From Bacteroidales bacterium (GTDB taxonomy: Bacteria > Bacteroidota > Bacteroidia > Bacteroidales > Bacteroidaceae): a DNA stretch of 32,133 bases. The notes below the pieces were generated by a model, which saw only the letters and a list, made by a program, of their open reading frames with translations, was not told the DNA's origin and did no database searches. The position numbers and the translations under genes were made by a program. Of this stretch, positions 11,229 to 25,978 are shown piece by piece (within the stretch, counting starts at the first letter, position 1; the number at the start of each line of letters is the position of its first letter). Where the stretch lies: the NCBI GenBank assembly GCA_015060965.1, contig SUXN01000032.1:1-32133 (forward strand), written 5' to 3'.

Positions 11229-14129
11229 TTATTTTCTCTTCTTCGGTTCTATATTCAACTTATATACAATGTGAAGCATTCCGTATGCAGGAACAACATT
11301 GTAATATGTTTCGGTTATACCCTGTGCATTTATACTGTGGCGGACATTGGATAGGTTGCCAAGTATGTCAAAGCCGTCAAGAATAAAGGTAAGGTTGCCG
11401 TTCAGGATACTGCGTTCAAGGCGTGCGTTCCACACAAGTTCATTAGTATTCAGCTGTTCATCGTTATAACCGTCACGGCAGTATAAAGTAAGGTCGGTTG
11501 CAAAATGAAACTCCCAGGGAAGAGGTATCCTTGCCGATGCGCTGTATGAATGGTTTACTGCATTTATGACATTGAAATTCTCTCTGCTACTTGTTGCACG
11601 AGTGTAGTTGCCTTGCAGCTTTGCACCAAGATGACAACCGTTACGCGACCAGTTCAATCGCAATGTCTCCCCTACATTAAAGTTATAGACCGTGCTTTCT
11701 ACCACATTTTGCCACGCATCGTCATTTGCAGTCGTGACCTCGGCTGCATCCACGCTGTTATGATAATTGAGTGAGCTGTTTGAGTCGAATGTAAAATTCT
11801 GATTCTTGCCGAAAATGCGATTGATGTTGAATGTACCGCCTGCAAGCCAATTACCGCTAATATTAACAGGACGCGTGGTGTAAACACCTGTCGTGGGGTT
11901 ATAACTACGCTGTATGCCGACATCGTTGTTCGAGGCGGTATAATTAAGCTCAAGGTTATAAAGTTGTCGCCTTGTCTTTCCGCTTCGGGAACTCATTGAG
12001 AGGCGTACATTATGGCGGTTGCTATTCTCAAGTGTCTTATTACCCATCTGTACATTCAACGGATTGGCATCACTGACAACCTCTACAAGATGTCGCATCG
12101 AGGGCTGTATTATTGAAAAGTCATAGTTCAACTTTATGTTTGTAAAAGCACCGTTCTTGTGGTATATCACAGGTTGCAATAACAAGCGTGGTGAAACGAG
12201 CACTGCGCTACGGCGTTCATCGGAGAGTATATCTTGGCGTTCAAAACGCAACCTCTCCTCAACAAGATTCACTGGCACATTCAAGTCAAATTCAAAGACA
12301 TTCTTGCCCTCGGCATTTCGTATGCGATAGAAGAAACGGGGTGCGATAGTATGCATCTTGTTCCAGGAATCCATATTTCCACTGTTGATGTCGGGCACAG
12401 GCAGAGCCGATGGCAATTCACCCAATGCATACTCGCAGTCTGCTCCCCATCCTTCAAGTTCATCTAGGCGATAAAGAGCCATACTCTGTGAACGATATTT
12501 TTGATTGTAGGAATATTCAAGGGAGATATTCATATCCTTTATGATTGGATATAAATATCGGGTAGCAAATTTATAGTCATATCCTTTGTTTGGACTATTG
12601 GTATATCTGTTGCGATAATCCTTGCTACCCTCTGCAAGATATTCAAGCGAATATATGTCAAAGGTTCTGTTTATCGTTTCATCAATATTGAACGAAGCAT
12701 TCAGTGTAAGGAAGTCGGATATGCCACGGTTGCGTGATGGAGACATCATGAGACTATAAGGAACTGAGATATTCCAATGGTCGCTCTCACTCATCATTGT
12801 CTGCTTCCAACGGTTGATGACAATGCGACGCAATGTATTATCTGTTGCAGAGAATGCACTGTCAAGCAAAGCTGCCCCAGTAACTACATCAAAAGGATTG
12901 TTAAAACATGAAGCCTCACGCAAGGAGGTTTTATTGTCACTATTCCGCAAATTGAATGTGATGTTTCCATTCTGCAATATATTGTTTGTATTGCTCTTGA
13001 AAGAGTGCTTCGTGTTTATTTGCATATTCTTACCAGTGCTGATATTTTCATTCCTTGCATAGGTATTACCGGTGGAGAGGAAGCTTGTCCTGTTGGTTCT
13101 TATATCCACATCATTGGAGGTATGTGTGAAATCGGCATTGCTTACCCACTCGAATGTCTTGCGACGGTTCTCATAGAGATACTCAATTCCTGCTGTTTGG
13201 CTTGTCTGTATACCTGTAGGTTGGCTCGACGGTGTCCAATCGCCTTGTCGTCCCGGGCGGCGGGTATCGTTGTTATTGTTAATGTTCCCAAAGAGTGCAA
13301 GGCGCGAACAGTCGGTAAAACGCAACGCAAACACCCTGCCAATATACTTGTTGTCTGTACCGTATGCAGCCTCTGCATTGGCTATCCAACCTATGGAATA
13401 CTCTTTTTTGAGCCTCACATCCATATCCAATGGACGTTCATCAAGTTGTTGCCCGGTCAGTTTCTCAAAATCAGTCTCACGTTCATATACCTTTACCTCG
13501 TTTACCATATATGCCGGCAGGTTGTCAAGTGCTACACGAGGGTCGCCCTTGAAGAAGTCCTTTCCGTTGACAAGCAACGAGGCTATCTGCTTGCCATTAT
13601 ACATTATAACACCATTATCCTTGAGTTCAACTCCCGGCAGCTGCTCTATGAGTGCATCGAGCATAGAGCCGTTAGACATCTGAAAAGCATCGGCATTGTA
13701 GACAACTGTATCACCACGCACAACCATCTTTATTTTCGTTGCCCTGACAGTAAATTCATCAAGATTGACGGTGCTTATCTTACGCATATATGCAGTTTCA
13801 CCCAAACGGAGATACTTGGCCTGTTTGGCAACCTTTACTTCAACAGGGAAATATAAGGTGTCGTAATCCTCGTGACTCAAACGGAATATGTAATTGCCGT
13901 TGCACGGAACAACAGCGCTTACACTTGATGCAGTACGCACACCATTGTTTGTGCTGTATTGCCATTTTCCATTGGCAAGGAATGTACTGTCGGAAGAGAG
14001 CAGTTCACACTTGCCATTCTCTACAAGTTCACCTGTAAAGGAGTTGGCAACTTGAAATGAAACTTTGATGGCTGTCTGCGAATAAAGATTTGCAGACACG
14101 AATAACATTGCAAATAACAGTTTCTTCAT
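11229..14129 (-). CDS. TonB-receptor-like outer-membrane protein, 966 aa
   Basis: Predicted outer-membrane receptor or transporter. The signal peptide is about 1-18 (MKKLLFAMLFVSANLYSQ). A beta-rich N-terminal domain (20-120) resembles the carboxypeptidase-regulatory-like module. A plug (121-230) contains VNLDEFTVRATKIKM, GDTVVYNADAF, LIEQLPGVELK and LLVNGKDFF. The rest is a long barrel ending in VYKLNIEPKKRK. It is paralogous to the 982-aa protein at 23030: DTVVYNADAF, IEQLPG and ALDNLPAY are shared. Upstream on the same strand lies a membrane-anchored HTH regulator, with TGTCAC repeats between them. No TonB box is certain. Ligand unknown. Confidence 0.88.
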   Translation of the reverse strand: MKKLLFAMLFVSANLYSQTAIKVSFQVANSFTGELVENGKCELLSSDSTFLANGKWQYSTNNGVRTASSVSAVVPCNGNYIFRLSHEDYDTLYFPVEVKVAKQAKYLRLGETAYMRKISTVNLDEFTVRATKIKMVVRGDTVVYNADAFQMSNGSMLDALIEQLPGVELKDNGVIMYNGKQIASLLVNGKDFFKGDPRVALDNLPAYMVNEVKVYERETDFEKLTGQQLDERPLDMDVRLKKEYSIGWIANAEAAYGTDNKYIGRVFALRFTDCSRLALFGNINNNNDTRRPGRQGDWTPSSQPTGIQTSQTAGIEYLYENRRKTFEWVSNADFTHTSNDVDIRTNRTSFLSTGNTYARNENISTGKNMQINTKHSFKSNTNNILQNGNITFNLRNSDNKTSLREASCFNNPFDVVTGAALLDSAFSATDNTLRRIVINRWKQTMMSESDHWNISVPYSLMMSPSRNRGISDFLTLNASFNIDETINRTFDIYSLEYLAEGSKDYRNRYTNSPNKGYDYKFATRYLYPIIKDMNISLEYSYNQKYRSQSMALYRLDELEGWGADCEYALGELPSALPVPDINSGNMDSWNKMHTIAPRFFYRIRNAEGKNVFEFDLNVPVNLVEERLRFERQDILSDERRSAVLVSPRLLLQPVIYHKNGAFTNIKLNYDFSIIQPSMRHLVEVVSDANPLNVQMGNKTLENSNRHNVRLSMSSRSGKTRRQLYNLELNYTASNNDVGIQRSYNPTTGVYTTRPVNISGNWLAGGTFNINRIFGKNQNFTFDSNSSLNYHNSVDAAEVTTANDDAWQNVVESTVYNFNVGETLRLNWSRNGCHLGAKLQGNYTRATSSRENFNVINAVNHSYSASARIPLPWEFHFATDLTLYCRDGYNDEQLNTNELVWNARLERSILNGNLTFILDGFDILGNLSNVRHSINAQGITETYYNVVPAYGMLHIVYKLNIEPKKRK

Positions 14130-14181
14130 AGTTCATCGTCTTTAAAGCATAAATTTGTATGCAAAAGAACCTTGAAAAAAT

Positions 14182-14218
14182 GTGACGAACAATGTTGTTT
14201 AGTGACAATAGGGTGACA
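14182..14218. promoter_or_regulatory. Direct-repeat operator candidate upstream of the 966-aa receptor
   Basis: Read in the direction of the gene, TGTCAC occurs at 14218-14213 and 14207-14202 (11-bp period), and CGTCAC at 14187-14182. The same 11-bp repeat lies before the regulator gene at 15304. It sits about 55-90 bp before the receptor ATG. Confidence 0.55.
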
Positions 14219-14227
14219 GGAGTGTTA

Positions 14228-15304
14228 TTAATTTTTGAAAAAGACAGAATAGTGTAAAGGGGAGAGTTTGTGTCTCAACCGTTCCTTGCGTTTACGAATT
14301 GCAGCTGGCGAAGAATAACTTATATATGCTATGACATTATTGCTTATTCCTATATATGAGCAGTCGCAGCACATTAGCTCATCGGCACTTAATTTATATT
14401 TGTCAATGAGAACAGCATTGACCTTATTAAAACTTTGGAAAACTTCTTTCTCAAGCAAATCCCTTTTGTCAAACGATGTCTTATAAAGTTCTTTTTCCTT
14501 TATTCTCAATTCATTCAACAACCGGAATGTTTCAGTCTGTTCAAAACACTGTTTGCAGGATTCAACACTATTGACAATATCATCGTTGGGTTCAATGATT
14601 GCAGGGTGTGTCTTATGCCACTTTTTCACCACTATATATATTATAATAATCAAAGCGACAGCAACTGTTACTATTAGATATAATATATTGTTGTTGTCAT
14701 CATCTTTATGCTGAATCTCAAGTTTGCTTTGCAGTTCCATGTTGAATGCATCATCCGTTAAAGTTGAGTATGCATCCAGTTTGCCTGATTCACAAACTTT
14801 ATCAAAGAGCTGTTTATGATAAAAGGCTGAATCCATCAATCCTTTTTGCTGGTAACTGTTGTATAGTGCATAATGTGCAACGTATTCTGTCCTGTTATCA
14901 TGCGGCATCGACAACGCCTTTTTGCAATAGTATATTGCTGAATCTGGAACACCATAATGCATCGAATAGTCACCTTTATAAGCATACAAGAAAGAGAATT
15001 CATTGGGAGTGGCAAGTTCAATACACCTGTTTATATATTCAATACATTTGTTTATATACCTGATTGCTGCCGCCCTATCTTTATTGACAGCATCCTCTAT
15101 CAGAGACATCGCAAAAAGAGCATTACAACGTACTCTCCAAGTTGCGCCGGTATCAACACTTATTTGTGCATATATCTTGAATGCGTCCTCATATTCTCCA
15201 CTCATGTGTAATGAAATTGCTTCTGCGTATTTTTCGTCAACAGTATGATTGCAGCAAGATATAATCGTCACAAGAACTAATAATAAAGACAGAAGTTTCT
15301 TCAT
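14228..15304 (-). CDS. Membrane-anchored TPR-HTH transcription regulator, 358 aa
   Basis: Predicted trans-envelope one-component regulator. The N-terminus has a lipobox-like IISC (Cys17), so it may be lipidated. TPR-like helices fill about 22-190 on the periplasmic side. One membrane segment covers about 207-226 (ILYLIVTVAVALIIIIYIVV). A charged linker and a C-terminal HTH follow at about 304-347 (LSADELMCCDCSYIGISNNV, then AAIRKRKERLRHKL). This layout is common in Bacteroidota regulators beside outer-membrane genes. Unusual: CxxC at 250-253 and CCxC at 312-315 on the cytoplasmic side. It lies directly upstream of the 966-aa receptor and has TGTCAC repeats in front of its own promoter. Homologous in layout and HTH to the protein at 22843. 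Confidence 0.82.
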   Translation of the reverse strand: MKKLLSLLLVLVTIISCCNHTVDEKYAEAISLHMSGEYEDAFKIYAQISVDTGATWRVRCNALFAMSLIEDAVNKDRAAAIRYINKCIEYINRCIELATPNEFSFLYAYKGDYSMHYGVPDSAIYYCKKALSMPHDNRTEYVAHYALYNSYQQKGLMDSAFYHKQLFDKVCESGKLDAYSTLTDDAFNMELQSKLEIQHKDDDNNNILYLIVTVAVALIIIIYIVVKKWHKTHPAIIEPNDDIVNSVESCKQCFEQTETFRLLNELRIKEKELYKTSFDKRDLLEKEVFQSFNKVNAVLIDKYKLSADELMCCDCSYIGISNNVIAYISYSSPAAIRKRKERLRHKLSPLHYSVFFKN

Positions 15305-15320
15305 AAATATGTTTTGGGGA

Positions 15321-15350
15321 CAAATATAGAAAAAAGAAACATTACTGCAA
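15321..15350 (-). promoter_or_regulatory. Promoter of the TPR-HTH regulator gene
   Basis: On the minus strand: -33 TTG (15350-15348), a 19-bp spacer and -7 TATATTTG (15328-15321). The ATG at 15304 is 17 bp beyond the -7 element, implying a very short leader. Confidence 0.7.
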
Positions 15351-15361
15351 GGTTAAAAACA

Positions 15362-15388
15362 GGACAAAATCGTGACAGATGTGTGACA
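15362..15388. promoter_or_regulatory. Direct-repeat operator candidate upstream of the TPR-HTH gene
   Basis: Read on the minus strand: TGTCAC (15388-15383), N5, TGTCAC (15377-15372), N5, TGTCCT (15366-15361). This is three copies at an 11-bp period ending 10 bp upstream of the -33 element, a position suited to an activator or autoregulation. Confidence 0.6.
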
Positions 15389-15402
15389 TCAAATACCTGA
15401 TT

Positions 15403-15513
15403 ATCGACAGTAAATGAAAACGCAAATTCCCGTTGCTGCATTTCATAGGCAGGATAAGGTTGTTGAGCTTATAATGACAGAGAATTGAAGAAAGAACAGA
15501 AATGGGAGGCAAT
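15403..15513 (+). pseudogene. Scar of a second copy of the winged-helix regulator's 3' end
   Basis: Bases 15420-15513 match 8173-8265, the last codons and stop region of the winged-helix regulator gene, with a few substitutions and a one-base insertion. 15403-15419 is weaker homology. There is no start or upstream body. It records a past duplication or recombination. Confidence 0.8.
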
Positions 15514-15555
15514 ATTGACGCGGACTCGACATAAGTTAACCGAATCGCGAATATC

Positions 15556-15602
15556 GTCATCCCCACACCGACAGTAGGGGCGGTATCGATGTGTCCGTAC
15601 AA
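15556..15602 (-). repeat. Dispersed repeat shared with 2231-2271
   Basis: The reverse complement contains GGACACATCGATACCGCCCC and then GGGGATGACG, matching the segment at 2231-2271 apart from a short length difference. Non-coding. Confidence 0.6.
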
Positions 15603-15761
15603 AAAAACGTTGAGGAACCTCAACAACCTGAAACGGAGAACCTTCGTTTCATTTAGGATGAACAAAATTTCTGGAATGTCATTGCTCTTGCTCTTTACAG
15701 ACGGTAAACTCCGTTTGGAGATGAACCGACATTCCTTTTATAAAAAATAACATTATATTTA

Positions 15762-15791
15762 TTGTATATAAAATATCTTTTAATAAATTTG
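15762..15791 (+). promoter_or_regulatory. Promoter of the lplA-gcvT unit
   Basis: -33 TTG (15762-15764), a 19-bp spacer and -7 TAAATTTG (15784-15791), 27 bp before the lplA ATG. Confidence 0.7.
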
Positions 15792-15817
15792 TGAGGTACA
15801 GCTGTAAATGTTGATAG

Positions 15818-16792
15818 ATGACATACGTTGCACTCCCAAATGATAAAGATTATCGCCTGCCGTTCTATCTTGCAATGGAGGAGTACGTTGCACGGGAATT
15901 TCCCGCGCAAGACTACTTTTTTATGTGGCAGGTGGAACCGACCGTCATATTTGGACGTAATCAACTTGTCGATAGTGAAGTTGACAGGGGCTACTGCAAC
16001 GATAACGGCATACAGGTATACCGCCGCAAGAGCGGTGGAGGCTGTGTCTATGCCGACAAGAGCAACATTATGCTCTCTTATATCACCCCCTCATCAAATG
16101 TGAACTTCACTTTTAACCGCTATATGCTTATGGTGGAGCATGCCCTACAGAAGTTAGGCGTGGATGCACGCACCACTGGGCGCAACGACATCCTTGTCGA
16201 CGGCAAGAAGGTCTCGGGCAATGCCTTCTATCATCTGCCCGGACGCAGCATAGTCCACGGCACAATGCTCTATGATACCAATCTTGAGCACATGGCACGT
16301 GCCACAACTCCGTCCGACTGCAAACTAAAGAGCAAAGGGGTGGAATCTGTGCGCCAGCACGTCACAACACTCAACCGTTATATATCATTGTCGATAGAGG
16401 AACTGAAGCAGTTCTTCCGCACTGAACTGTGTGATGACGAGAGAGTGCTTTCGGCTGCTGATATTGCTGCGATTGAGGAGATTGAGCGCGAATATTATAC
16501 CCCTGAATTCATATACGGCAACAACCCGGCCTATTCGGTTGTAAAGAGCAAGCGCATCGAGGGCGTTGGTGAGTTCCGTGTGAGCATTGATGCCAAGGGC
16601 GGAGTGGTGCGCAAGGTGAACCTCACGGGTGACTTTTTTGTGATAGGAGACATTGACACCATGCTTCTTGCAAAGTTCAATGGTGTGAGGCTTGAACGTG
16701 AGGCGTTGGAAAAGGCTCTTTGCGGTGTCGACTGCGGCGCGGTAATAATGAATCTGACTGAAGAACAACTTATAAACTTATTAATTGACTGA
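15818..16792 (+). CDS. lplA: Lipoate-protein ligase A
   Basis: Activates lipoate with ATP and transfers it to a lysine of lipoyl domains such as GcvH, in the cytoplasm. The 324-residue length fits a full LplA with its C-terminal accessory domain. Seen: RRKSGGGCVYAD (69-80), the lipoate and ATP-binding loop, and GRNDILVDGKKVSGNAF (121-137), in which Lys131 aligns with the conserved ligase lysine. Residues about 200-324 form the small accessory domain (EREYYTPEFIYGNNPAYSVV). It begins the glycine-cleavage cluster and ends 2 bp before gcvT, so the two are co-transcribed. Its likely client is the GcvH encoded 1.4 kb downstream. ATG 15818 fits the promoter spacing. Confidence 0.95.
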   Translation: MTYVALPNDKDYRLPFYLAMEEYVAREFPAQDYFFMWQVEPTVIFGRNQLVDSEVDRGYCNDNGIQVYRRKSGGGCVYADKSNIMLSYITPSSNVNFTFNRYMLMVEHALQKLGVDARTTGRNDILVDGKKVSGNAFYHLPGRSIVHGTMLYDTNLEHMARATTPSDCKLKSKGVESVRQHVTTLNRYISLSIEELKQFFRTELCDDERVLSAADIAAIEEIEREYYTPEFIYGNNPAYSVVKSKRIEGVGEFRVSIDAKGGVVRKVNLTGDFFVIGDIDTMLLAKFNGVRLEREALEKALCGVDCGAVIMNLTEEQLINLLID

Positions 16793-16794
16793 TT

Positions 16795-17883
16795 ATGGAA
16801 AACAAAAGAACCTGTCTTTACGACAAACACGTGGCGTTGGGTGCGCTGATAAGCCCTTTCGGTGGCTTTGACATGCCAATCCAGTATACCAACATTGTTG
16901 ACGAGCACAACGCAGTGCGTCAGGCGTGTGGTATCTTTGATGTCTCTCACATGGGCGAGGTGCTTATCACCGGTGCCGAGAGCGAGAAATTCGTGAACTA
17001 CATTTTCACTAACGATATTGCCGGTGCTCCCGACGGCAAGATTTTCTACGGAATGATGTGTCACCCCACCGGCGGTGTCGTTGATGACCTGCTTGTATAC
17101 AAGATGGGTGCTGAACGCTTCTTCCTTGTAATCAACGCATCGAACATCGACAAGGATGTTGCATGGATTATGGAGCATGCCAAAGAGTTCGACGTTGTGG
17201 TTGAGCACCAGAGCGAGAAGTACGGCGAGGTAGCAGTCCAGGGCCCGAAGACCGAGGAGATTGTCGAGCGCATCCTTGGCCTGCAGTGCAGCGACCTCAC
17301 ATTCTACACCTGCAAGGAGGTTGAGGCGAACGGTGAGACAATCATCATCAGCCGCACTGGTTACACCGGTGAGGACGGCTTTGAGATTTATGCTTCACAT
17401 GCATTCACAAACGAGGTGTGGGACAAGCTCGTGGGCAGCGGTGAGGTAAAGCCTTGCGGTCTCGGTTGCCGCGATACTCTCCGTTTTGAGGTTGGTCTTC
17501 CACTTTATGGCGATGAGCTTACCGACGAGATTACCCCTCTTGAGGCAGGCTTGGGCATGTTCGCAAAGCTCGACAAGGATTTCATTGGCCGCGATGCTCT
17601 TGTAGCACAGAAGGCCGATGGCCTCAAGCGCAAGATTGTAGGCATCGAGCTCAAGGACAAGGCTATTCCACGTCACGGCTACCCCGTTGAGGTTGACGGC
17701 AAGGTGATAGGCGAGGTTACTACAGGTTACAACTCAATCTCTACAGGCAAGAGCGTCTGTATGGCTATGGTGGACATTGAATATGCAAAGCTCGATACTG
17801 AGGTTGAGGTACGCATCCGCAAGAAGGTGTTCCCCGGTGTAGTCACCAAAAAACGTTTCTACGACAAAAACTATAAGAAATAA
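16795..17883 (+). CDS. gcvT: Glycine cleavage system T protein (aminomethyltransferase)
   Basis: Transfers the aminomethyl carbon from lipoyl-GcvH to tetrahydrofolate, giving 5,10-methylene-THF and ammonia. The 362-residue length is typical. Seen: the N-terminal LYDKHVALGALISPFGGFDM, GIFDVSHMGEV (46-56) and PTGGVVDDLLVYK, with the conserved acidic pair Asp97-Asp98 in the folate pocket. SRTGYTGEDGFEIY and the C-terminal barrel (KRKIVGIELKDKAIPRHGYP) complete the family pattern. It is translated 2 bp after lplA. The 374 bp that follow, before gcvH, contain a REP-like element and a MITE. Confidence 0.97.
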   Translation: MENKRTCLYDKHVALGALISPFGGFDMPIQYTNIVDEHNAVRQACGIFDVSHMGEVLITGAESEKFVNYIFTNDIAGAPDGKIFYGMMCHPTGGVVDDLLVYKMGAERFFLVINASNIDKDVAWIMEHAKEFDVVVEHQSEKYGEVAVQGPKTEEIVERILGLQCSDLTFYTCKEVEANGETIIISRTGYTGEDGFEIYASHAFTNEVWDKLVGSGEVKPCGLGCRDTLRFEVGLPLYGDELTDEITPLEAGLGMFAKLDKDFIGRDALVAQKADGLKRKIVGIELKDKAIPRHGYPVEVDGKVIGEVTTGYNSISTGKSVCMAMVDIEYAKLDTEVEVRIRKKVFPGVVTKKRFYDKNYKK

Positions 17884-17890
17884 ATGCAGA

Positions 17891-17940
17891 TTGTTATCCT
17901 GAGCATTTTTTGAGATACTTCGTTTCACTCAGTATGACAA
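17891..17940. repeat. Short REP-like element after gcvT
   Basis: Begins TTGTTATCCTGAG and ends CTCAGTATGACAA, giving imperfect inverted ends of the TGTCAT/ATGACA class. It lies 8 bp beyond the gcvT stop codon and could fold in the mRNA. Confidence 0.5.
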
Positions 17941-17967
17941 ATACTTGATTGCAATAGCTAAAAACTT

Positions 17968-18225
17968 AGAAGCTGTTTAAATTTATGTCCTTGAAATTTT
18001 TATAGGTCTTTTTTAGAATGTTTTTTCATTTTTCAAAGCCACGAATAAGCGAGCGCAAAGAAAGTTTACTTGCTTTGCCGAGCGAGAGTGGTTTCGTACA
18101 ACAAAGGCGCATAGCGGGCTATGTAACTGCGAAAAAGGGGAAAACAGACAAAAAAGAACATAAAAAGACAAGTACAACTCGCGAGCAATGTAATATTTTT
18201 TTCGAAAGAAATTTAAACAGCTTCT
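17968..18225. mobile_element. 258-bp MITE between gcvT and gcvH
   Basis: Perfect 17-bp terminal inverted repeats: AGAAGCTGTTTAAATTT at 17968-17984 and its complement at 18209-18225. The interior encodes no transposase and contains a palindrome, CATAGC-GG-GCTATG (about 18110-18123). Another copy of the terminus is at 2374-2390. I see no clear target duplication. The open frame at 18018-18236 lies within the element and is not counted as a gene. Confidence 0.75.
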
Positions 18226-18257
18226 TAAATAACTAACTAACCATTAAATTTTTAATT

Positions 18258-18638
18258 ATGAGCACAATTTTGGAAGGACTTTATTACGCAGAGTCACACG
18301 AGTATGTAAAGGTAGAGGGTGAATTCGGTTATGTAGGTATCACCGACTATGCACAGCACGAGCTTGGCAACGTGGTATACGTTGATATGCCAGATGTTGA
18401 CGATGAGGTAACAGCAGGTGAGGACTTCGGTGCCGTTGAGAGCGTAAAGGCAGCCAGCGACCTTATCTCTCCTGTAAGCGGTACTGTTGTCGAGGTCAAC
18501 GAGGCTCTCAACGACAATCCTGAGCTTGTGAACAGCGACCCATATGCAAACTGGATTATCAAGGTTCAGCTTTCCGATCCTTCAGAGGTTGAGAATCTGA
18601 TGGATGCTGAGGCGTATAAGACTGCTATCGGCGAATAA
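18258..18638 (+). CDS. gcvH: Glycine cleavage system H protein
   Basis: Small lipoyl carrier that shuttles the aminomethyl group between P, T and L proteins in the cytoplasm. It has 126 residues, normal length. The lipoylation site is Lys64 in ESVKAASD, flanked by the expected hairpin. HEYVKVEGEFGYVGITDYAQ and LGNVVYVDMPDVDDEV are the conserved N-terminal strands. The leader is A/T-rich without a Shine-Dalgarno site. A MITE separates it from gcvT, so it may rely on read-through or on a promoter I could not identify. LplA upstream is the probable modifying enzyme. Confidence 0.98.
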   Translation: MSTILEGLYYAESHEYVKVEGEFGYVGITDYAQHELGNVVYVDMPDVDDEVTAGEDFGAVESVKAASDLISPVSGTVVEVNEALNDNPELVNSDPYANWIIKVQLSDPSEVENLMDAEAYKTAIGE

Positions 18639-18706
18639 CATTGGAAATGGCTAAAAAGCGAATTGCCTTCTCCGACTGTTTCAGTATTGTTTGAAACGCA
18701 TTATTT

Positions 18707-18785
18707 TGTCATCCCGACTGAGCGGAGCGACGAGGGATCTCATAATCGCGTATAATGAGATATCTCACATGCGTTCGATATGACA
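18707..18785. repeat. REP-like element between gcvH and gcvPA
   Basis: Begins TGTCATCCCGACTGAGCGGA and ends with ATGACA, with an internal ATGAGAT/ATCTCAT-type pairing. This GTCATCCCGA...GAGGGATCTC form is a familiar intergenic repeat in Bacteroidota. It lies 35 bp before gcvPA. Confidence 0.65.
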
Positions 18786-18819
18786 ATATAGGACGGAGGG
18801 CAACCTAAATGGAATCAGT

Positions 18820-20136
18820 ATGAAATACTTCCCTCATACCCAACAGGATATTCAGCAGATGCTTGCCGTTGCGGGACTCAAGTCCATGGATGAACTCTTT
18901 GGCGAGATTCCGCAGCAGCTGCTGTTCAATCGCGAATTCAACCTCCCCGAGGCTATGTCCGAGGTTGAGATACGCAACTATTTTGAGGCATTAGGTAAAC
19001 GCAACAGCAACCTTGTCTGCTTTGCGGGTGCCGGTGTCGAAGACCACTATTCACCGTCGGTGATAGCACCTATCATCTCACGCGGTGAGTTCCTTACAGC
19101 ATACACTCCTTACCAGCCCGAGATTTCACAGGGTACATTGCAGTATATCTTCGAGTACCAGTCGATGATTTGCGAGCTGACAGGAATGGATGTCACCAAC
19201 GCTTCGATGTATGACGGCACCACCGCCACAGCCGAGGCTATGATGATGTGTGTTGCCATTGCCAAGAAACGTAACAAAGTGCTTGTATCGGCAACTGTCG
19301 ACCCAAAGGTGAAACGCGTTGTCGAGACATACGCAAAGTATCAGGGTGTAGTCATTGAGACTATTGCCGAGAAGGATGGCGTTACCGACCTTGCCGACCT
19401 TGAGGCAAAGCTTGCTGCCGACGATGTGGCAGGTGTTATCCTTGCACAGCCTAATTTCTACGGTATTGTAGAGGATTATGCCGGTGTTGCCGATATGTGC
19501 CATGCAAAGAAGGCGCAGCTTGTTATTAATGCCAAACTCTCGGCTCTTGCAGTGCTCAAGACTCCGGCAGAGTGGGGTGCAGACATCGCCTGCGGCGATG
19601 CGCAGTCACTCGGTATTCCAATGACATACGGTGGTCCTTACGTCGGTTATCTTGCTTGCACAAACGCACATGTGCGCAAGCTGCCCGGACGTATCGTCGG
19701 TGCAACAACCGATGTTGACGGCAAGCGTGCATTCGTGCTTACATTGCAGGCACGCGAGCAGCATATCCGTCGCGAGAAGGCGAACAGCAACATCTGTTCC
19801 AACCAGTCTCTCATGGCATTGTGGGTGACAATCTACATGTCGGTGATGGGTAACAAGGGCCTCAATGAGGCTTGCTCACTCTCGTACAGCGGTGCGCACT
19901 ACCTTGCCCAGCAACTTGTTGCTACAGGCAAGTGCACAATGGCATATGACAAACCGTTCTTCAACGAGTTTGCAGTGAAGACAACTGTTCCTGCACAGCA
20001 GGTGCTTGAGGCTCTCCTTGCAAACGGCATCCTCGGTGGTGTACGCATTGCCGATGATACTCTGCTTGTATGCGTTACAGAGCAGCGCTCAAAGGCCGAG
20101 ATGGACAAGTTTGTCGAAATAGTAAGTAACATTTAA
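18820..20136 (+). CDS. gcvPA: Glycine dehydrogenase (decarboxylating) subunit 1
   Basis: N-terminal half of the P protein, which with GcvPB decarboxylates glycine and loads the aminomethyl group on GcvH. It has 438 residues, within the range of separate subunit-1 proteins. Seen: KYFPHTQQDIQQMLAVAGLK, ELFGEIPQQLLF, FAGAGVEDHYSPSVIAPIIS, TAYTPYQPEISQGTLQYIFE and MTYGGPYVGYLAC. It has the PLP type-I fold but not the PLP lysine, which is on GcvPB. Followed after 17 bp by gcvPB. The gap to gcvH contains a REP-like element, so transcription may not be continuous. Confidence 0.97.
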   Translation: MKYFPHTQQDIQQMLAVAGLKSMDELFGEIPQQLLFNREFNLPEAMSEVEIRNYFEALGKRNSNLVCFAGAGVEDHYSPSVIAPIISRGEFLTAYTPYQPEISQGTLQYIFEYQSMICELTGMDVTNASMYDGTTATAEAMMMCVAIAKKRNKVLVSATVDPKVKRVVETYAKYQGVVIETIAEKDGVTDLADLEAKLAADDVAGVILAQPNFYGIVEDYAGVADMCHAKKAQLVINAKLSALAVLKTPAEWGADIACGDAQSLGIPMTYGGPYVGYLACTNAHVRKLPGRIVGATTDVDGKRAFVLTLQAREQHIRREKANSNICSNQSLMALWVTIYMSVMGNKGLNEACSLSYSGAHYLAQQLVATGKCTMAYDKPFFNEFAVKTTVPAQQVLEALLANGILGGVRIADDTLLVCVTEQRSKAEMDKFVEIVSNI

Positions 20137-20141
20137 TATAA

Positions 20142-20150
20142 GGAGGAGAT
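20142..20150 (+). promoter_or_regulatory. Strong Shine-Dalgarno site for gcvPB
   Basis: The purine run AAGGAGGAG lies just before ATG 20154. Most genes in this window have A/T-rich leaders without such a site, so this one is notable. It fixes the gcvPB start. Confidence 0.75.
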
Positions 20151-20153
20151 ACT

Positions 20154-21620
20154 ATGATACGCAATTATGACAAATTGATATTCGAGCTCTCAAAAGAGGG
20201 CCGCACAGGATATTCTCTTCCAAAGAATGAACTGAAAGAGCAGCACTGCATCTGCCAGCTGCCGGCGAACCTCAAACGCGGGTCGGCACCAGAGCTCCCC
20301 GAGGTTACGGAGTTCGACGTGGTACGTCACTACACCAACCTCTCTAACAAGAACTTCGGCGTAGATACAGGCTTCTATCCATTGGGCAGCTGTACCATGA
20401 AGTACAACCCTCGCATCAACGAGGAGATAAGCGCCTTGCCGTCGTTCGCACGTCTGCATCCGGCTTCTCCTGTCGAGGCTGCCCAGGGCGCTCTCGAGGT
20501 ATACTACAACCTCGCAGCATCCCTTGCCGAGATAAGTGGCCTTGGAGCATTCACGCTCAACCCCTATGCCGGTGCACACGGTGAACTTACAGGTCTTATG
20601 ATTATGCGCTCATACCACATGCAGCGTGGCGACCTCAAGCGTACAAAGGTTATCGTTCCCGACAGTGCCCATGGTACCAACCCCGCGAGTGCGGCAGTCT
20701 GCGGCCTGCAGATTGTAGAGGTCAAGTCCACAGCCAACGGCACCGTTGACGTTGAGGACCTCAAGCCGTTGCTCGATGACACTGTTGCCGGTATCATGAT
20801 GACAAACCCCAACACCCTCGGTATCTTCGAGACAGAAATCCCCGAGATTGCACGTCTTGTACACGAGTGCGGCGGCTTGCTCTACTACGACGGAGCCAAC
20901 CTCAACGCAGTGCTCGGCAAGTGCCGTCCAGGCGATATGGGCTTCGACATCATGCACATCAACCTTCACAAGACCTTCTCTACACCTCACGGTGGCGGTG
21001 GTCCCGGCGACGGCCCTGTAGGCGTACGCGCAGGCCTTGAGGCATTGTTGCCAAACCCACAGGTGAAGAAGGATGCCGATGGCAAGTATTACATCGACAC
21101 CGATGACAAGTCGGCAGGCTATGTATCGAATTTCCTCGGCAACTTCGCTGTGCTGTTGCGTGCATATACCTATATCCTCACCCTCGGTCGCGAGAATGTG
21201 AAGATGGTAGGTCCGCTCGCAGTGCTCAATGCCAACTATGTGAAGGAGTCCTTGAAGAACGAGTACTATCTGCCTATCGAGGGCGTTTGCAAGCACGAGT
21301 TCGTGTTCGACGGCCTTGCCGACAAGTCGACAGGTGTCACAACCCTCGACATTGCCAAGCGTCTGCTCGACTACGGCTACCATGCACCTACAATCTACTT
21401 CCCGCTGCTGTTCCACCAGAGCATCATGATTGAGCCTACCGAGACAGAGAGCAAGGAGACACTTGATGAGTTCATTGCAGTGATGAAGAAGGTTGCAGCC
21501 GAGGCAATAGAGAACCCCGACATAGTCAAGAGCGCTCCGCACAGTACCCCTGTGCGCCGTTTGGACGAGACAACCGCCGCACGTTTCCCCAAAACCACCT
21601 ATAAGCAGTTAAAAGGATAA
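20154..21620 (+). CDS. gcvPB: Glycine dehydrogenase (decarboxylating) subunit 2
   Basis: C-terminal, PLP-carrying half of the P protein. It has 488 residues, the usual length for subunit 2. The PLP Schiff-base lysine is Lys273 in INLHKTFSTPHGGGGPG. Also seen: FYPLGSCTMKYNPRINE (74-90), NPYAGAHGELTGLMIMRSYH, PDSAHGTNPASA and TNPNTLGIFE. The last gene of the cluster, it is followed by a perfect hairpin terminator at 21760-21802. Only 17 bp after gcvPA and with a strong ribosome site, it is surely co-translated with it. The L protein gene (lpd) is not in the window. Confidence 0.98.
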   Translation: MIRNYDKLIFELSKEGRTGYSLPKNELKEQHCICQLPANLKRGSAPELPEVTEFDVVRHYTNLSNKNFGVDTGFYPLGSCTMKYNPRINEEISALPSFARLHPASPVEAAQGALEVYYNLAASLAEISGLGAFTLNPYAGAHGELTGLMIMRSYHMQRGDLKRTKVIVPDSAHGTNPASAAVCGLQIVEVKSTANGTVDVEDLKPLLDDTVAGIMMTNPNTLGIFETEIPEIARLVHECGGLLYYDGANLNAVLGKCRPGDMGFDIMHINLHKTFSTPHGGGGPGDGPVGVRAGLEALLPNPQVKKDADGKYYIDTDDKSAGYVSNFLGNFAVLLRAYTYILTLGRENVKMVGPLAVLNANYVKESLKNEYYLPIEGVCKHEFVFDGLADKSTGVTTLDIAKRLLDYGYHAPTIYFPLLFHQSIMIEPTETESKETLDEFIAVMKKVAAEAIENPDIVKSAPHSTPVRRLDETTAARFPKTTYKQLKG

Positions 21621-21759
21621 CGTGTAATGTTTCATGTTTAATGTTGCTTGCAGCATTGATAGCATGAGCAGCAATAGTCGCGGCTGCATGGATGCAATTC
21701 ATGCCCCGCGGTGTGCGATTAGCGAGTGTTGTCAAAGGGTAACGGACAACGTTTGTATT

Positions 21760-21802
21760 ATATGATTAATGGGCTTGCTTACGGCAAGCCCATTAATCAT
21801 AT
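21760..21802. terminator. Bidirectional hairpin terminator between gcvPB and the HTH regulator
   Basis: Perfect 19-bp stem (21760-21778 with 21784-21802) and 5-nt loop. The right arm contains the TGA stop codon (21799-21797) of the minus-strand regulator gene. It can stop transcription from both converging units. Confidence 0.8.
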
Positions 21803-22843
21803 TCTTATTTCATCGCCCATAATTTCTTTTATGCGTTTTACTCTGTTCCAGACGGTCTGTCTGGGAGCATTTGTTATTCTTTCAATCTCGGGATTACTCA
21901 TTCCTGCTTTCAGAAGATAACAAACCCTAAGGGTCGTTTCATTAATTTGGGGCAGTTTTTTATGTATCGCGTCTTTGAATGTAGGATATTTCTCTTCAAT
22001 AGTTTGATATAGTTCTAACCAGTCTTCTTCAGTCGGTTCTTCTTGCCCTATCGCTGCCTGTTTGAATTTAGTGACAATACCGCTGTTGGCACATTTCATA
22101 TTATCTTTCAGTACCATTTTCATCAAGTCGCAGTTCTGCTGTTCGCGTGTCTTAAGTAGATTCTCGACTTTTTGAATCTCCTCATTCTTATGCTTCAGCC
22201 TGTTTCTGTATCTAAGCAAGATAAGTAATAGTATAGCTATGACAGAAACGATGATTGACAAAAGAATACTTCTTCTTAATGCTGTCATTATCCCGGTTGG
22301 GCTAGTTGCCTTGTCCGAACCTGTATGGGCGCTGCTTTTGCCGAAAGTCAATATTTCAATTGCATTGTAATCCCATGCTTTTTCAACATACAAATCCGAT
22401 CTTTTTCTGTCCCCTCTGACTCCTGTTGTGTCTTCGTAACCCAATAAAGGATTAAGCTTAATGCTAAGATGCTTATATGCATTCCCTTTTAATTTGTTGC
22501 CGGACACAATGACTTTGAACACCTCTTCGATTAAAGCGGAATCCACTTCGGTATATTTGATGTCTGTTTTATACATTATTGTTCGCCCTTTTCCAAAGGA
22601 TTGGACATCAGTCAATGAGTCAAGCAACTCTATGTATAGATATGAATACTCTTTACGGAAATCTGCACTGCCTTCTCTGAAATATTCTGCATTGCGCTGT
22701 AGCTCAAGAAATGCCTCTTTGTGTGAAGTGTCGCTTATTTCATGAATTCTATCCAATAGTACTTTCCCTTTATCTTCGTTATCCGTAACAAATGTCATTG
22801 GTGTTACAGATAATAGTACAAAATACAGAATCAAAAATTTCAT
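21797..22843 (-). CDS. Membrane-anchored HTH transcription regulator, 348 aa
   Basis: Predicted trans-envelope regulator. The N-terminal hydrophobic stretch (1-18) is a signal or anchor. A helical periplasmic domain covers about 20-185, shorter and less TPR-like than in the protein at 15304. The membrane segment is about 191-211 (SILLSIIVSVIAILLLILLR), followed by a coiled coil (212-235, KNEEIQKVENLLKTREQQN). The C-terminal HTH is at about 301-342 (NETTLRVCYLLKAGMSNPEI, then RQTVWNRVKRIKEIM). Divergent from the 982-aa receptor gene, with 186 bp between them containing four TGTCCC repeats. Same architecture and aligned HTH as the regulator at 15304. Sensed signal unknown. Confidence 0.82.
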   Translation of the reverse strand: MKFLILYFVLLSVTPMTFVTDNEDKGKVLLDRIHEISDTSHKEAFLELQRNAEYFREGSADFRKEYSYLYIELLDSLTDVQSFGKGRTIMYKTDIKYTEVDSALIEEVFKVIVSGNKLKGNAYKHLSIKLNPLLGYEDTTGVRGDRKRSDLYVEKAWDYNAIEILTFGKSSAHTGSDKATSPTGIMTALRRSILLSIIVSVIAILLLILLRYRNRLKHKNEEIQKVENLLKTREQQNCDLMKMVLKDNMKCANSGIVTKFKQAAIGQEEPTEEDWLELYQTIEEKYPTFKDAIHKKLPQINETTLRVCYLLKAGMSNPEIERITNAPRQTVWNRVKRIKEIMGDEIRI

Positions 22844-22867
22844 AATATATTATCCTAATTATATATG

Positions 22868-22875
22868 CAAAATTA
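22868..22875 (-). promoter_or_regulatory. -7 element of the HTH regulator gene
   Basis: Minus-strand TAATTTTG, 25 bp before the ATG at 22843. The -33 region is poor (TTC where TTG is expected), consistent with a weak or activator-dependent promoter. Confidence 0.5.
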
Positions 22876-22906
22876 GCATATTTATGTTTATTGCTGAACC
22901 TGTTCT

Positions 22907-22972
22907 TGTCCCAAGTTGTCCCAAAGTGGGTGTATGGTGTCCCGAAATGTCCCAAATAGGGCATGGTGGGAC
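22907..22972. promoter_or_regulatory. TGTCCC direct-repeat operator candidate
   Basis: TGTCCC occurs at 22907-22912, 22917-22922, 22938-22943 and 22948-22953, with start spacings of 10, 21 and 10 bp, so all four are on the same helical face. An inverted GGGAC lies at 22968-22972. The array is between the regulator's -7 element and the receptor's -33 element, ending 27 bp upstream of the latter. Confidence 0.7.
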
Positions 22973-22980
22973 GATGTTTC

Positions 22981-23012
22981 TTGTATCTTATTTCTGCTAT
23001 GGGGTACTTTTG
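22981..23012 (+). promoter_or_regulatory. Promoter of the 982-aa receptor gene
   Basis: -33 TTG (22981-22983), a 21-bp spacer and -7 TACTTTTG (23005-23012), 18 bp before ATG 23030. Same core elements and spacing as the winged-helix regulator promoter at 7109. Confidence 0.75.
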
Positions 23013-23029
23013 TCAGCAAAAAAGTGATT

Positions 23030-25978
23030 ATGAAAAAGATTCTTTTTATTCTGTTGCTGTTGCAGGTGACAGTAGTACAGGCACAAAAGGAAATTCTCGT
23101 AAGTGGTGATGTGAGCAATCTCTTTACAAATGAGGGGATACCTAATGCAAAAGCACAGATTATACTCAAAGACTCACTTGTGGTTTTGGATTCATGCAGG
23201 ACAAAGCTTGACCTTGTAACAGAAGTGACAGGAAACGTGACGTCAACTCATTTTGACAAGAATAGCGGTGCCGGTTTCAAGCTATACCTTCACAATGCTG
23301 TTGATTGTCGCGTTGTTATTGAAGCCGATGGATATATGCCTTATGCGTATGATATTCCAGCAGATGAACTTCAAGGTAAGAAAATTTATGAACTCGGTAG
23401 CTTGCTGCTTCACCCTGAACCAAAGGAGCAGACTCTGAATGAGGTAGTAGTGTCTGCAACGAAAATAAAAATGTTTTATAAAGGCGATACCGTTGTGTAT
23501 AATGCCGATGCTTTCGATGTGGCACAGAGCGAGACATTACGTGAGCTTATTGAACAATTGCCAGGCACGGAGTTCCGCGACGGTCGTGTGTATGTCAACG
23601 GTCGTTATGTGGAAAATCTGCTACTCAATGGCAAGAATTTCTTCAACGGCAACATTGTGGCAGCGCTTGACAACTTACCGGCATATGTTATTGACAAGGT
23701 TAAGGTGTATGACCGCAGTGGTGAACTGACCGAAATGACAGGCAAGGATATGCATGACAGTAAGTACGTTATGGACCTCTCTCTTAAACGTGAGTATATA
23801 GGTACTTGGCTTCTTCAGGCAAGTGGCGGAGCCGGAACTGCAGAAAGATACCAAGGGCTCGGGTATCTTATGCGTATGGATGACAGGCAGATGTTTTCTC
23901 TGAATCTTGATGCAAACAATATCAATACAAAACGTGAGGTAACCTCAAGAGGGGCGCGGATGTCAATAGGTATGTCTGGTAAGGACTATTCTGTCAAAAG
24001 TGCAACTTTAAACTACTATATGGAACCGGACAGAAAATTCCGATTCAGCATTAACGGAAATGTTGATAGAGTAGAGCAATTGGACAAGATTTTCAGAAGC
24101 CATGAAACATTTCTTCCAACTGTCAATATGATGAGCCGGAGCGAAACTTTGAATTCGACAGAAAATACAGCAATCAAAGCCGGTTCATCTTTGACTTTCC
24201 GCCCTCTGAAAAACCAGAGTTACAATCTGCAATATAGTTTCAATTTCACCGACAACAACACCTTGCTTGACAACAAAAGCCTCTCCTTTTATCAACCGGG
24301 GAAAAGCGAGTGGGAAAACTTGAGTATAGACAGTATAATAAGGAGTGAAGAATTGACAGAAAAGAAAGAACTTCTATACAGCTTATTCTCACCGTCGTTG
24401 AATGAACGTGTAGGGATAGACCATAAAGTGCTGGGTTCTGCTAATTTCTCACTCGGTGGCAATATCCTTTCTTTAAAAAGCGATTTTATACACAATACAG
24501 ACCGTGTTAAAGAGTATGATAATTATAATCTGACATACTTCTCCGGAGCAGACAATGATAGACAAAGACGATATGGTAATTCACGTGATTACGCGATGAA
24601 TGCCGGAGTCGCTTTGGATTTTATATATAAGTTCCTCGATTCAAAGAATAATAATGCACAAGTGATTCCATATATAAGTTATCGTTATAATTCCGGTACA
24701 ATGTCACACCCTCTTTACCGCATGGAGCGCATTGACGGATGGTTGGAAGACACTCCGTGGGATGCTACTTCATTGGGAACCATTCCGCCTACGGAACTTC
24801 TTGAGCAGTGTATTGATGAAGAAAACAGCTATTACAGTCGCACGATAGGCAATACCGTTTCAGCCGGAGTGAGGTTTATGCACAAGAGCCGATACCAGGA
24901 CAAATCAAACATACGCATAAATGCTTCGGTTGAGCTGTCCTACAATGAAAAAAGTCTGGATTATGACCGTAATGGTGACACAAGAAGAGTCCAGCGCAAT
25001 GAACTTCTGCTCAAACCGAGTGTAAGCATTGACTGGTATCCTTGCAAAGGAGATTTAAGAGGCATCGTAAGCCGTTGGAATTTCTCCTATAGCTGTACTC
25101 CGGAAATGCCACAACTGATGCAGTTGCTTACAATAAGAAATACCACTGACCCACTCAACAAACACTATGGAAACAGCAGGCTGAAGAACGAGTACCGGCA
25201 TAAAGCCGGGTTTGTATACAACTATAACCATAAGGAGAAAAAGATTGCATTCAACTGTTCTACAGATTATACTTATACCGCAAATGATATAACCACAATG
25301 TCGGCATATGACACTGCAACAGGTGCGCGTACATATACCCCTGTAAACACTTCTAAAACAAATGTCGTAAACAGTAATATAGGCTTTTCAATGCCACTTG
25401 ATAAAAATGAACGGTTCTATCTTAGATTGGGAACCGGTGGCTACTATTCACAGTATATAAATTTGGCATCATTCAGTAGCGAACCTACAGAAGGTTGTCT
25501 GACAAGAAATTACCAAGTAGCTCCTACGTTGCAGGTAGACTGTAATGTCAATAAGTTCAATGCCTGTATAGCAGCGACACCTAAATTCAATTATATAAAG
25601 CAGAAAAACTATAGTGACCGTTATAACGACATAATACTTACCGGAGAAACTTCATATACATTCCCGTTTGATATAAGGTTCTCGACACGATTTAATGCAT
25701 ATATAACAACCGGATACAGCAATGAGACAATGAACGGTTTCAAGCCGATATGGAATATCAATATTTCGCATGCATTCTTCAAAAATAAATTGAACGTGGA
25801 GCTTGTTGCCAATGATATTCTGGCACGCCAAAACTCGATATCAGCAACGGTAGATGCCAATGGACGCACCGAAATATTCAGAGAACATTTGTCGAGATAT
25901 TTTATGCTTAATATAAGCTACAAATTCAATTGGAGCGAGAAGACCAAAGTATGTTGCCGGGATTACGTAAGATATTGA
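23030..25978 (+). CDS. TonB-receptor-like outer-membrane protein, 982 aa
   Basis: Predicted outer-membrane receptor, paralogue of the 966-aa protein. The start chosen (ATG 23030) begins a clean signal peptide (MKKILFILLLLQVTVVQAQ) and follows the promoter; an in-frame upstream ATG at 22916 lies inside the operator array and is rejected. A beta-rich N-terminal domain covers about 20-130. The plug (136-245) contains LNEVVVSATKIKM, GDTVVYNADAF, LIEQLPGTEF, LLLNGKNFF and ALDNLPAY. A long barrel follows. The last residues (KTKVCCRDYVRY) look unlike a barrel end and overlap an antitoxin-like ORF in another frame, so the original C-terminus may have been altered. Divergent from an HTH regulator. Confidence 0.87.
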   Translation: MKKILFILLLLQVTVVQAQKEILVSGDVSNLFTNEGIPNAKAQIILKDSLVVLDSCRTKLDLVTEVTGNVTSTHFDKNSGAGFKLYLHNAVDCRVVIEADGYMPYAYDIPADELQGKKIYELGSLLLHPEPKEQTLNEVVVSATKIKMFYKGDTVVYNADAFDVAQSETLRELIEQLPGTEFRDGRVYVNGRYVENLLLNGKNFFNGNIVAALDNLPAYVIDKVKVYDRSGELTEMTGKDMHDSKYVMDLSLKREYIGTWLLQASGGAGTAERYQGLGYLMRMDDRQMFSLNLDANNINTKREVTSRGARMSIGMSGKDYSVKSATLNYYMEPDRKFRFSINGNVDRVEQLDKIFRSHETFLPTVNMMSRSETLNSTENTAIKAGSSLTFRPLKNQSYNLQYSFNFTDNNTLLDNKSLSFYQPGKSEWENLSIDSIIRSEELTEKKELLYSLFSPSLNERVGIDHKVLGSANFSLGGNILSLKSDFIHNTDRVKEYDNYNLTYFSGADNDRQRRYGNSRDYAMNAGVALDFIYKFLDSKNNNAQVIPYISYRYNSGTMSHPLYRMERIDGWLEDTPWDATSLGTIPPTELLEQCIDEENSYYSRTIGNTVSAGVRFMHKSRYQDKSNIRINASVELSYNEKSLDYDRNGDTRRVQRNELLLKPSVSIDWYPCKGDLRGIVSRWNFSYSCTPEMPQLMQLLTIRNTTDPLNKHYGNSRLKNEYRHKAGFVYNYNHKEKKIAFNCSTDYTYTANDITTMSAYDTATGARTYTPVNTSKTNVVNSNIGFSMPLDKNERFYLRLGTGGYYSQYINLASFSSEPTEGCLTRNYQVAPTLQVDCNVNKFNACIAATPKFNYIKQKNYSDRYNDIILTGETSYTFPFDIRFSTRFNAYITTGYSNETMNGFKPIWNINISHAFFKNKLNVELVANDILARQNSISATVDANGRTEIFREHLSRYFMLNISYKFNWSEKTKVCCRDYVRY

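Follow-up and report, generated by a model that had tools for sequence, protein, structure and literature searches.

The window analysed here is a 32,133-nucleotide stretch of DNA from a Bacteroidales bacterium (contig SUXN01000032.1 of assembly GCA_015060965.1), and it carries two gene pairs, each made up of a membrane regulator (R1 or R2) and an outer-membrane receptor (RA or RB). We concluded that R1 and R2 are likely one-component regulators of the inner membrane, probably activators, that respond to a periplasmic signal and act through tandem DNA sites at their own promoters and at those of the receptors. The architecture of the regulators, the homology of their helix-turn-helix (HTH) domains, their pairing with receptors, the repeats at both promoters and the preferred spacing of these repeats are all legible in the sequence. 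The initial annotation had the coordinates of the regulators right and likewise their layout, in which an export signal is followed by a periplasmic domain, a single membrane helix and, at the C-terminus, an HTH; the four genes are as follows:

14228-15304, minus strand: R1, 358 aa, with a lipobox signal, a helical periplasmic domain resembling tetratricopeptide repeats (TPR), a membrane helix at residues 207-225 and a C-terminal HTH
11229-14129, minus strand: RA, outer-membrane receptor of the OMP_b-brl_3 family (PF14905), the partner directly downstream of R1
21797-22843, minus strand: R2, 348 aa, with a plain signal, a short periplasmic domain, a membrane helix at residues 192-210 and a C-terminal HTH
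23030-25978, plus strand: RB, outer-membrane receptor of the OMP_b-brl_3 family (PF14905), the divergent partner of R2, with its likely start at 23030

The predicted operators are listed below together with the -7 boxes, for which we used what we take to be the consensus, TAnnTTTG:

15361-15388, minus strand: predicted R1 operator, TGTCAC, TGTCAC and TGTCCT at 11-bp steps, the nearest half-site starting 38 bp upstream of the -7 box
15321-15328, minus strand: -7 box of R1, TATATTTG
14202-14218, minus strand: predicted RA operator, TGTCACCCTATTGTCAC, the nearest half-site starting 38 bp upstream of the -7 box
14162-14169, minus strand: putative -7 box of RA, TTCTTTTG, with one mismatch
22907-22922, strand not applicable: predicted R2/RB operator 1, TGTCCCAAGTTGTCCC, at the canonical distance from the R2 -7 box
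22938-22953, strand not applicable: predicted R2/RB operator 2, TGTCCCGAAATGTCCC
22868-22875, minus strand: -7 box of R2, TAATTTTG
23005-23012, plus strand: putative -7 box of RB, TACTTTTG, the repeat near the canonical position being degenerate (4/7)

The tandem TGTCAC-N5-TGTCAC occurred twice in the window, at 15372-15388 before R1 and at 14202-14218 before RA, compared with a mean of 0.02 in shuffled sequences. Alignment of five R1 loci revealed repeats resembling TGTCAC ahead of the regulator and, in less perfect form, ahead of the receptor, and these repeats, sometimes imperfect, were kept although the regulators are just 44-72% identical. Our sample of the genus comprised 44 genomes, the window's own included, with 44 HTH matches and 76 plug matches; it contained 19 exact sites of the R1 type, eight of them at R1 loci (seven before R1 and one before RA), while 10 of the 11 others lay inside called open reading frames (ORFs) and a reversed control pattern gave 7. 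The R2 tandem, TGTCCC-N4-TGTCCC, was found twice in the 2.6-Mb genome from which the window comes, both times between R2 and RB, and twice in genome G020, at the same place. Exact tandems of the form TGTC[CA] stood upstream of 13/39 genes of the regulator family versus 3/224 controls, the three being RA, an R1 orthologue that a contig end truncates (L067) and, seemingly, the first half of a regulator gene that has been split (L070); when one mismatch was tolerated, the counts were 19/39 family genes, 22/224 controls and 10/16 divergent partners. A common TGTC core for R1 and R2 was also considered and found weak, the half-sites in promoter direction being TTGTCACA for R1 and TTGGGACA for R2. 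Right upstream of the R1 operator, at 15394-15486 on the plus strand, lies a relic, with stops, of the 3' end of the winged-helix gene that encodes a third membrane regulator of the window (described below), and a similar relic precedes R1 in G011.

The spacing of the repeats was also evident from a scan that assumed no motif, in which each 7-base word was compared with the one lying 10 or 11 bp earlier and similarity was recorded by distance to a TAnnTTTG box. Similarity peaked at 38-39 bp, involving 21-24% of candidate promoters of regulator genes and 17-23% of those of partners versus 1-2% of controls. Counted per gene, a 10/11-bp tandem at 37-40 bp upstream of the -7 box was present in 18/35 regulators, 12/38 partners and 24/510 controls, the last set including the truncated R1 orthologue of L067, with Fisher P values of 3.5e-13 for regulators and 8e-7 for partners when orthologues were all counted; RA and R2 were among the hits. 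The same scan at four other distances gave 4-7/35, 1-4/38 and 14-17/510, respectively. At nine loci (L082-L086 and L186-L189), relatives some 342 aa long stand next to large secreted enzymes, those scanned by Pfam being glycoside hydrolases (GH95 in L082 and GH2 in L083), and at eight of the nine there were TGCAAAC-type half-sites at the same 38-bp distance, with L187 under the threshold.

The neighbourhood check suggested by the initial annotation was run across the genus sample and returned eight adjacent HTH/plug pairs versus 0.17 expected by chance (a hand count from two tables); several of the eight are orthologous, and counted as three lineages they gave P = 7e-4. The proposed pairing of regulator and receptor thus recurs beyond chance, but the branch to which the regulators belong is not receptor-specific, as only 8/44 HTH matches adjoin a plug match. 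Besides the window there were four full R1 orthologues (G032, G011, G020 and G027:C14), each with a receptor directly downstream, which was of the RA type in 4/4 other genomes where the contig allows; further R1 matches were two contig-end fragments (G005 and G027:C182) and two weak, distant matches without a receptor (G027:C23 and G054). The R2 orthologue of G020 has the same arrangement and, being 96% identical in the same neighbourhood, is not an independent locus. Gene order is co-directional in R1-RA, divergent in R2-RB and receptor-first in L355, so that the pairing is indeed kept despite differing orientation, as had been proposed from the window. Within the plugs, pairing was confined to a high-scoring subfamily (8/15 versus 0/61, P 3e-7), in which G027 had been placed by hand because of the match cut; leaving out the 7 profile rows gave 2/8 versus 0/61 (P 0.012), and leaving out G027 as well gave 1/7 (P 0.10). 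Gene calling relied on a simple script that takes the longest ORF, which puts some starts too far upstream (e.g., L350, L354 and L357).

The partners of both sides also vary. Other family regulators lie next to small proteins in which export signals were recognised by eye, or next to the glycoside hydrolases named above, and the same receptor subfamily is found elsewhere with genes for an extracytoplasmic function (ECF) sigma factor and a FecR-like protein (L179) or with BlaI/BlaR1-like genes (L176). A ninth receptor, in L054, lies in an operon with a C39-peptidase exporter, divergent from a family regulator. This cluster of the window's own genome (L054 2272-15499) also contains a glycosyltransferase-like gene and, upstream of the receptor, a small ORF with a GG-like leader (both by eye), and its divergent regulator is TPR-like and has tandem sites.

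When 295 genomes of the order were searched with an R1 profile, all matches outside the genus were partial, and the best of them was to the tail alone (G275, 93.8 bits). Among 20 places taken from the top of the receptor list, with some tandem or contig-end ones omitted and two (L278 and L288) having almost no upstream DNA, a family regulator stood directly upstream of the receptor in two: L283, with an R1-like regulator and TGTCAC repeats at both promoters, and L269, with a TGTATACC repeat before the receptor. Sigma-like genes, judged by size, membrane helix and sequence start, were seen in L277, L281 and L282. The L283 regulator had matches in 61 of 399 genomes of the same family (related records named Bacteroidaceae). 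From the regulator side we examined 20 fetched places in two other genera together with L283, dropping one weak match (L369, 50.8 bits), for a total of 21 R1-like genes, some truncated or over-long. Exact tandems preceded 11/21 of these and tandems with at most one mismatch 14/21, versus 1/45 exact in controls; six of the 21 adjoin a receptor, and all six receptors have a tandem of their own. Without the query locus L283, the counts were 10/20 for exact tandems and 5/20 for receptor adjacency, with tandems at 5/5 receptors. All six receptor pairs are in one genus and amount to about three lineages, since four of them (L283, L350, L351 and L352) are 79-95% alike. The other 15 regulators stand beside different genes or at the end of a contig, so the target class seems less constant than the unit of regulator and operator.

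Both regulators have an N-terminal signal and a single strong internal membrane helix. The R1 signal is of the lipobox type, with Ser16-Cys17 invariant in 5/5 aligned sequences (R1 and its four orthologues); the R2 signal has no lipobox cysteine. By a simple rule treating both sets alike, a lipobox at the first Met was present in 30/45 members of the branch versus 38/228 other signal-bearing proteins, which makes it a property of the branch and not of R1 alone, and we predict lipid attachment at the periplasmic N-terminus for R1 and most of its relatives. No Pfam or NCBIfam family was above cut-off for R1 or R2. The predicted structure of R1 was all helical (mean predicted local distance difference test score 69.9, predicted template modelling score 0.44), and the top Foldseek matches of this model were largely TPR proteins; none reached E <= 0.001, so the TPR-like label is a tentative one. 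A sequence search of the PDB returned four designed pentatricopeptide-repeat proteins for R1, with whole-sequence E values of 1e-11 to 2e-10 and no single stretch passing, which we took as repeat composition, and no matches for R2.

Direct BLASTP of R1 against R2 found nothing meaningful (best E 1.7, in the wrong region). Iterated hidden Markov models built from either cytoplasmic tail, in a protein set fetched partly for matching R1 or R2, nevertheless recovered the other regulator and 27 further proteins, and in an 18-row alignment the two HTH stretches quoted by the initial annotation fell in one register, in agreement with its claim that they align. The tails are 12% identical. The nearest relatives of R2 are mostly proteins of about 570 aa with a membrane helix and HTH, 34-44% identical over the tail; TPR repeats were found by Pfam in two R2-related proteins (L061 and L081), with L054 just under the cut-off. 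Because the periplasmic domains of R1 and R2 have no detectable relation and the R2 tail resembles those of other regulators far more than that of R1, the two pairs do not appear to stem from the duplication of a single ancestral pair. An open-licence literature search, which does not prove absence, found no paper on this regulator branch or its operators.

RA and RB had been described as paralogous receptors with the common motifs DTVVYNADAF, IEQLPG and ALDNLPAY; both do carry these plug motifs, and both match PF14905 (46.8 and 64.8 bits, cut-off 27); over their full length RB is about 25-26% like the RA type (compared with two RA orthologues). RB most likely starts at the ATG at 23030, not at 22916, as the signal peptide and the -7 box fit there; the over-long ORF call is overlapped by operator 1 and contains operator 2. 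Apart from a sub-threshold ThiS match, Pfam found only the barrel family above cut-off in the receptors and no signalling domain, and the 12 window proteins scanned included neither a sigma/anti-sigma pair nor a histidine kinase, a set for which the earlier statement to that effect holds. In these scans RA and RB showed neither the N-terminal signalling domain nor the sigma/anti-sigma genes of a TonB signalling receptor. In G000, G020 and G032, RA is mostly 98-100% identical in DNA from about residue 160 on, apart from one divergent stretch in G000, while the adjoining R1 is just 54-72% identical in protein; this mosaicism suggests recombination homogenising the receptor, and the mechanism proposed below is not rested on it.

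Since tandem operators stand at both promoters, the HTH very probably acts at the promoter of the receptor as well as at the regulator's own, which supports the earlier proposal of a one-component regulator controlling the receptor gene. A periplasmic event, most likely the arrival of a substrate imported by the receptor, would change the periplasmic domain, and the signal would then cross the single membrane helix and linker to the cytoplasmic HTH. Several HTHs may bind head-to-tail to half-sites spaced by one helical turn, some 38 bp ahead of the -7 box, and could there recruit RNA polymerase to both promoters. DNA binding, activation in preference to repression, a periplasmic ligand and oligomerisation are what we infer here, and the position of the repeats upstream of the promoter core would suit an activator.

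The same sites could instead serve repression, with regulators occupying them by default and leaving on a periplasmic signal. Autoregulated repressors are common beside their targets, sites stand at both promoters, and by hand we located a further TCAC half-site just about 18 bp upstream of the RA -7 box; the repeats nevertheless peak away from the promoter core, at about 38 bp ahead of the -7 box, and passages of PMC3878776 describe the characterised relative SusR as an activator, so we consider repression unlikely. The signal might also come from the receptor itself, its plug or N-terminal periplasmic domain docking on the regulator much as in FecA-FecR but without a sigma factor. Recurrence of the pairing outside the genus would agree with this, as would a lipid anchor and membrane helix that could hold the sensor near the envelope, and among the five R1-RA alleles regulator identity rises with that of receptor residues 1-120 (Spearman 0.80 over 10 non-independent pairs), the plug being 96-100% identical throughout. 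These residues, however, include the signal peptide, the most divergent part, and G011 is off the trend, its receptor part being 94% alike to the window's and its regulator 63%; with no receptor signalling domain by Pfam and relatives paired with non-receptor targets, direct docking appears doubtful. A bolder form of it, in which R1-type proteins are lipidated transcription factors, possibly anchored in the outer membrane with DNA at their other end and the receptor or its N-terminal periplasmic domain as direct input, strikes us as quite improbable. If true, the lipidated R1 type would be a sigma-free, kinase-free relay from receptor to DNA across the whole envelope, and a swappable module of a receptor subfamily whose partners elsewhere are of the sigma/anti-sigma or BlaI/BlaR1-like kind.

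That the regulators merely happen to sit by receptors, the repeats being general promoter features, would account for the 36/44 family matches in the genus that are not beside this receptor. It is hard to reconcile with the excess of adjacent pairs (8 versus 0.17), with a repeat position so rare in controls (24/510), with R1 and R2 sites that are nearly unique per genome and with recurrence outside the genus, and we regard it as very improbable. Several observations do count against activation through tandem operators. The R1 loci of G032:C45 and G027:C14 have no exact site and the L175 pair no convincing repeat; the exact R2 repeat has 7 further matches in the genus versus 6 for its reversed control; R1 (5/7) and 16 others of the 35 regulators, as well as RB among the partners, are below the per-gene threshold; the 10/11-bp repeat is absent at the four SusR-type loci checked; and the Fisher P values above are too small, because orthologues are not independent.

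The combination of half-site, 10/11-bp step and about 38 bp to the -7 box provides a working code with which to predict what many so far uncharacterised regulators of this bacterial family control, and the ligand question becomes testable with a reporter. SusR-type control is described mainly for glycan loci in the literature passages we consulted, and the divergent branch found here probably governs a different receptor class.

Elsewhere in the window, the third membrane regulator (7153-8250, plus strand) has helices around residues 7 and 209; its C-terminal winged helix resembles Trans_reg_C weakly and under the cut-off (E 0.0016). Two further copies of this regulator family are present in the same genome, and in G065 there are copies in tandem. 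The neighbour of the regulator (8661-10721, minus strand) is receptor-like by eye only, Pfam finding nothing. Two secreted proteins whose ends are thioredoxin-like (2484-4154, only weakly so, and 4565-6913, both minus strand) are almost identical to each other in upstream DNA and in signal peptide (ATVCGFAQE), a signal also present in L177 and L178, beside a receptor. The names gcv and lipoate ligase for other window genes are presumptive and rest at best on a reading by eye.

With respect to known systems, FecA-FecR-FecI signals from the receptor through ECF sigma factors. Our pairs resemble it in having regulatory genes beside an outer-membrane receptor, and the same receptor subfamily has such a pair in L179, but here the DNA-binding domain is within the membrane protein itself, no sigma/anti-sigma genes were seen at either pair and no receptor signalling domain was found. 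CadC and ToxR, according to passages of PMC9214523, likewise join a periplasmic sensor through one helix to a DNA-binding domain and are one-component systems as R1 and R2 appear to be; the HTH of ToxR is described there as N-terminal, whereas that of R1 and R2 is C-terminal, follows an export signal and is of another type. The Dma proteins, as presented in parts of PMC13088901, are also Bacteroidota regulators reaching across the envelope, but they control ECF21 sigma factors and end in a beta-barrel, and R1 has neither a barrel nor an ECF21 sigma factor.

In their workings R1 and R2 would resemble SusR (BT3705; Pfam DUF6377), which, in the passages of PMC3878776 used here, has the same topology, binds maltose in the periplasm and activates the sus operons through direct repeats 67 or 77 bp apart. 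R1 and R2 share its export signal, helical periplasmic sensor, single membrane helix and C-terminal HTH, and the regulator gene likewise adjoins that of an outer-membrane importer. They differ in falling below the DUF6377 cut-off (PF19904, 36.7 bits; R2 14.8, R1 no match, versus 299.8 for the SusR-type protein of L209), in half-sites 10-11 bp apart versus the published 67/77 bp, in having OMP_b-brl_3 receptors and not SusC/SusD as partners, and in the 30/45 branch members that read as lipoproteins. The open-licence search found no paper on DUF6377. Six SusR-type proteins, recognised by position beside GH97 and SusC-/SusD-sized genes (e.g., L209), gave weak matches to the HTH of the branch (E 2.8e-5 to 0.017, 174 proteins being searched), and along the length hhalign gave a probability of 97.7, possibly helped by TPR and the membrane helix. 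Because the branch appears SusR-like in its workings yet departs from the family in two respects, DUF6377 and operator spacing, we consider it a probable divergent sister branch, distantly related to SusR, and a variant of SusR-like one-component control.

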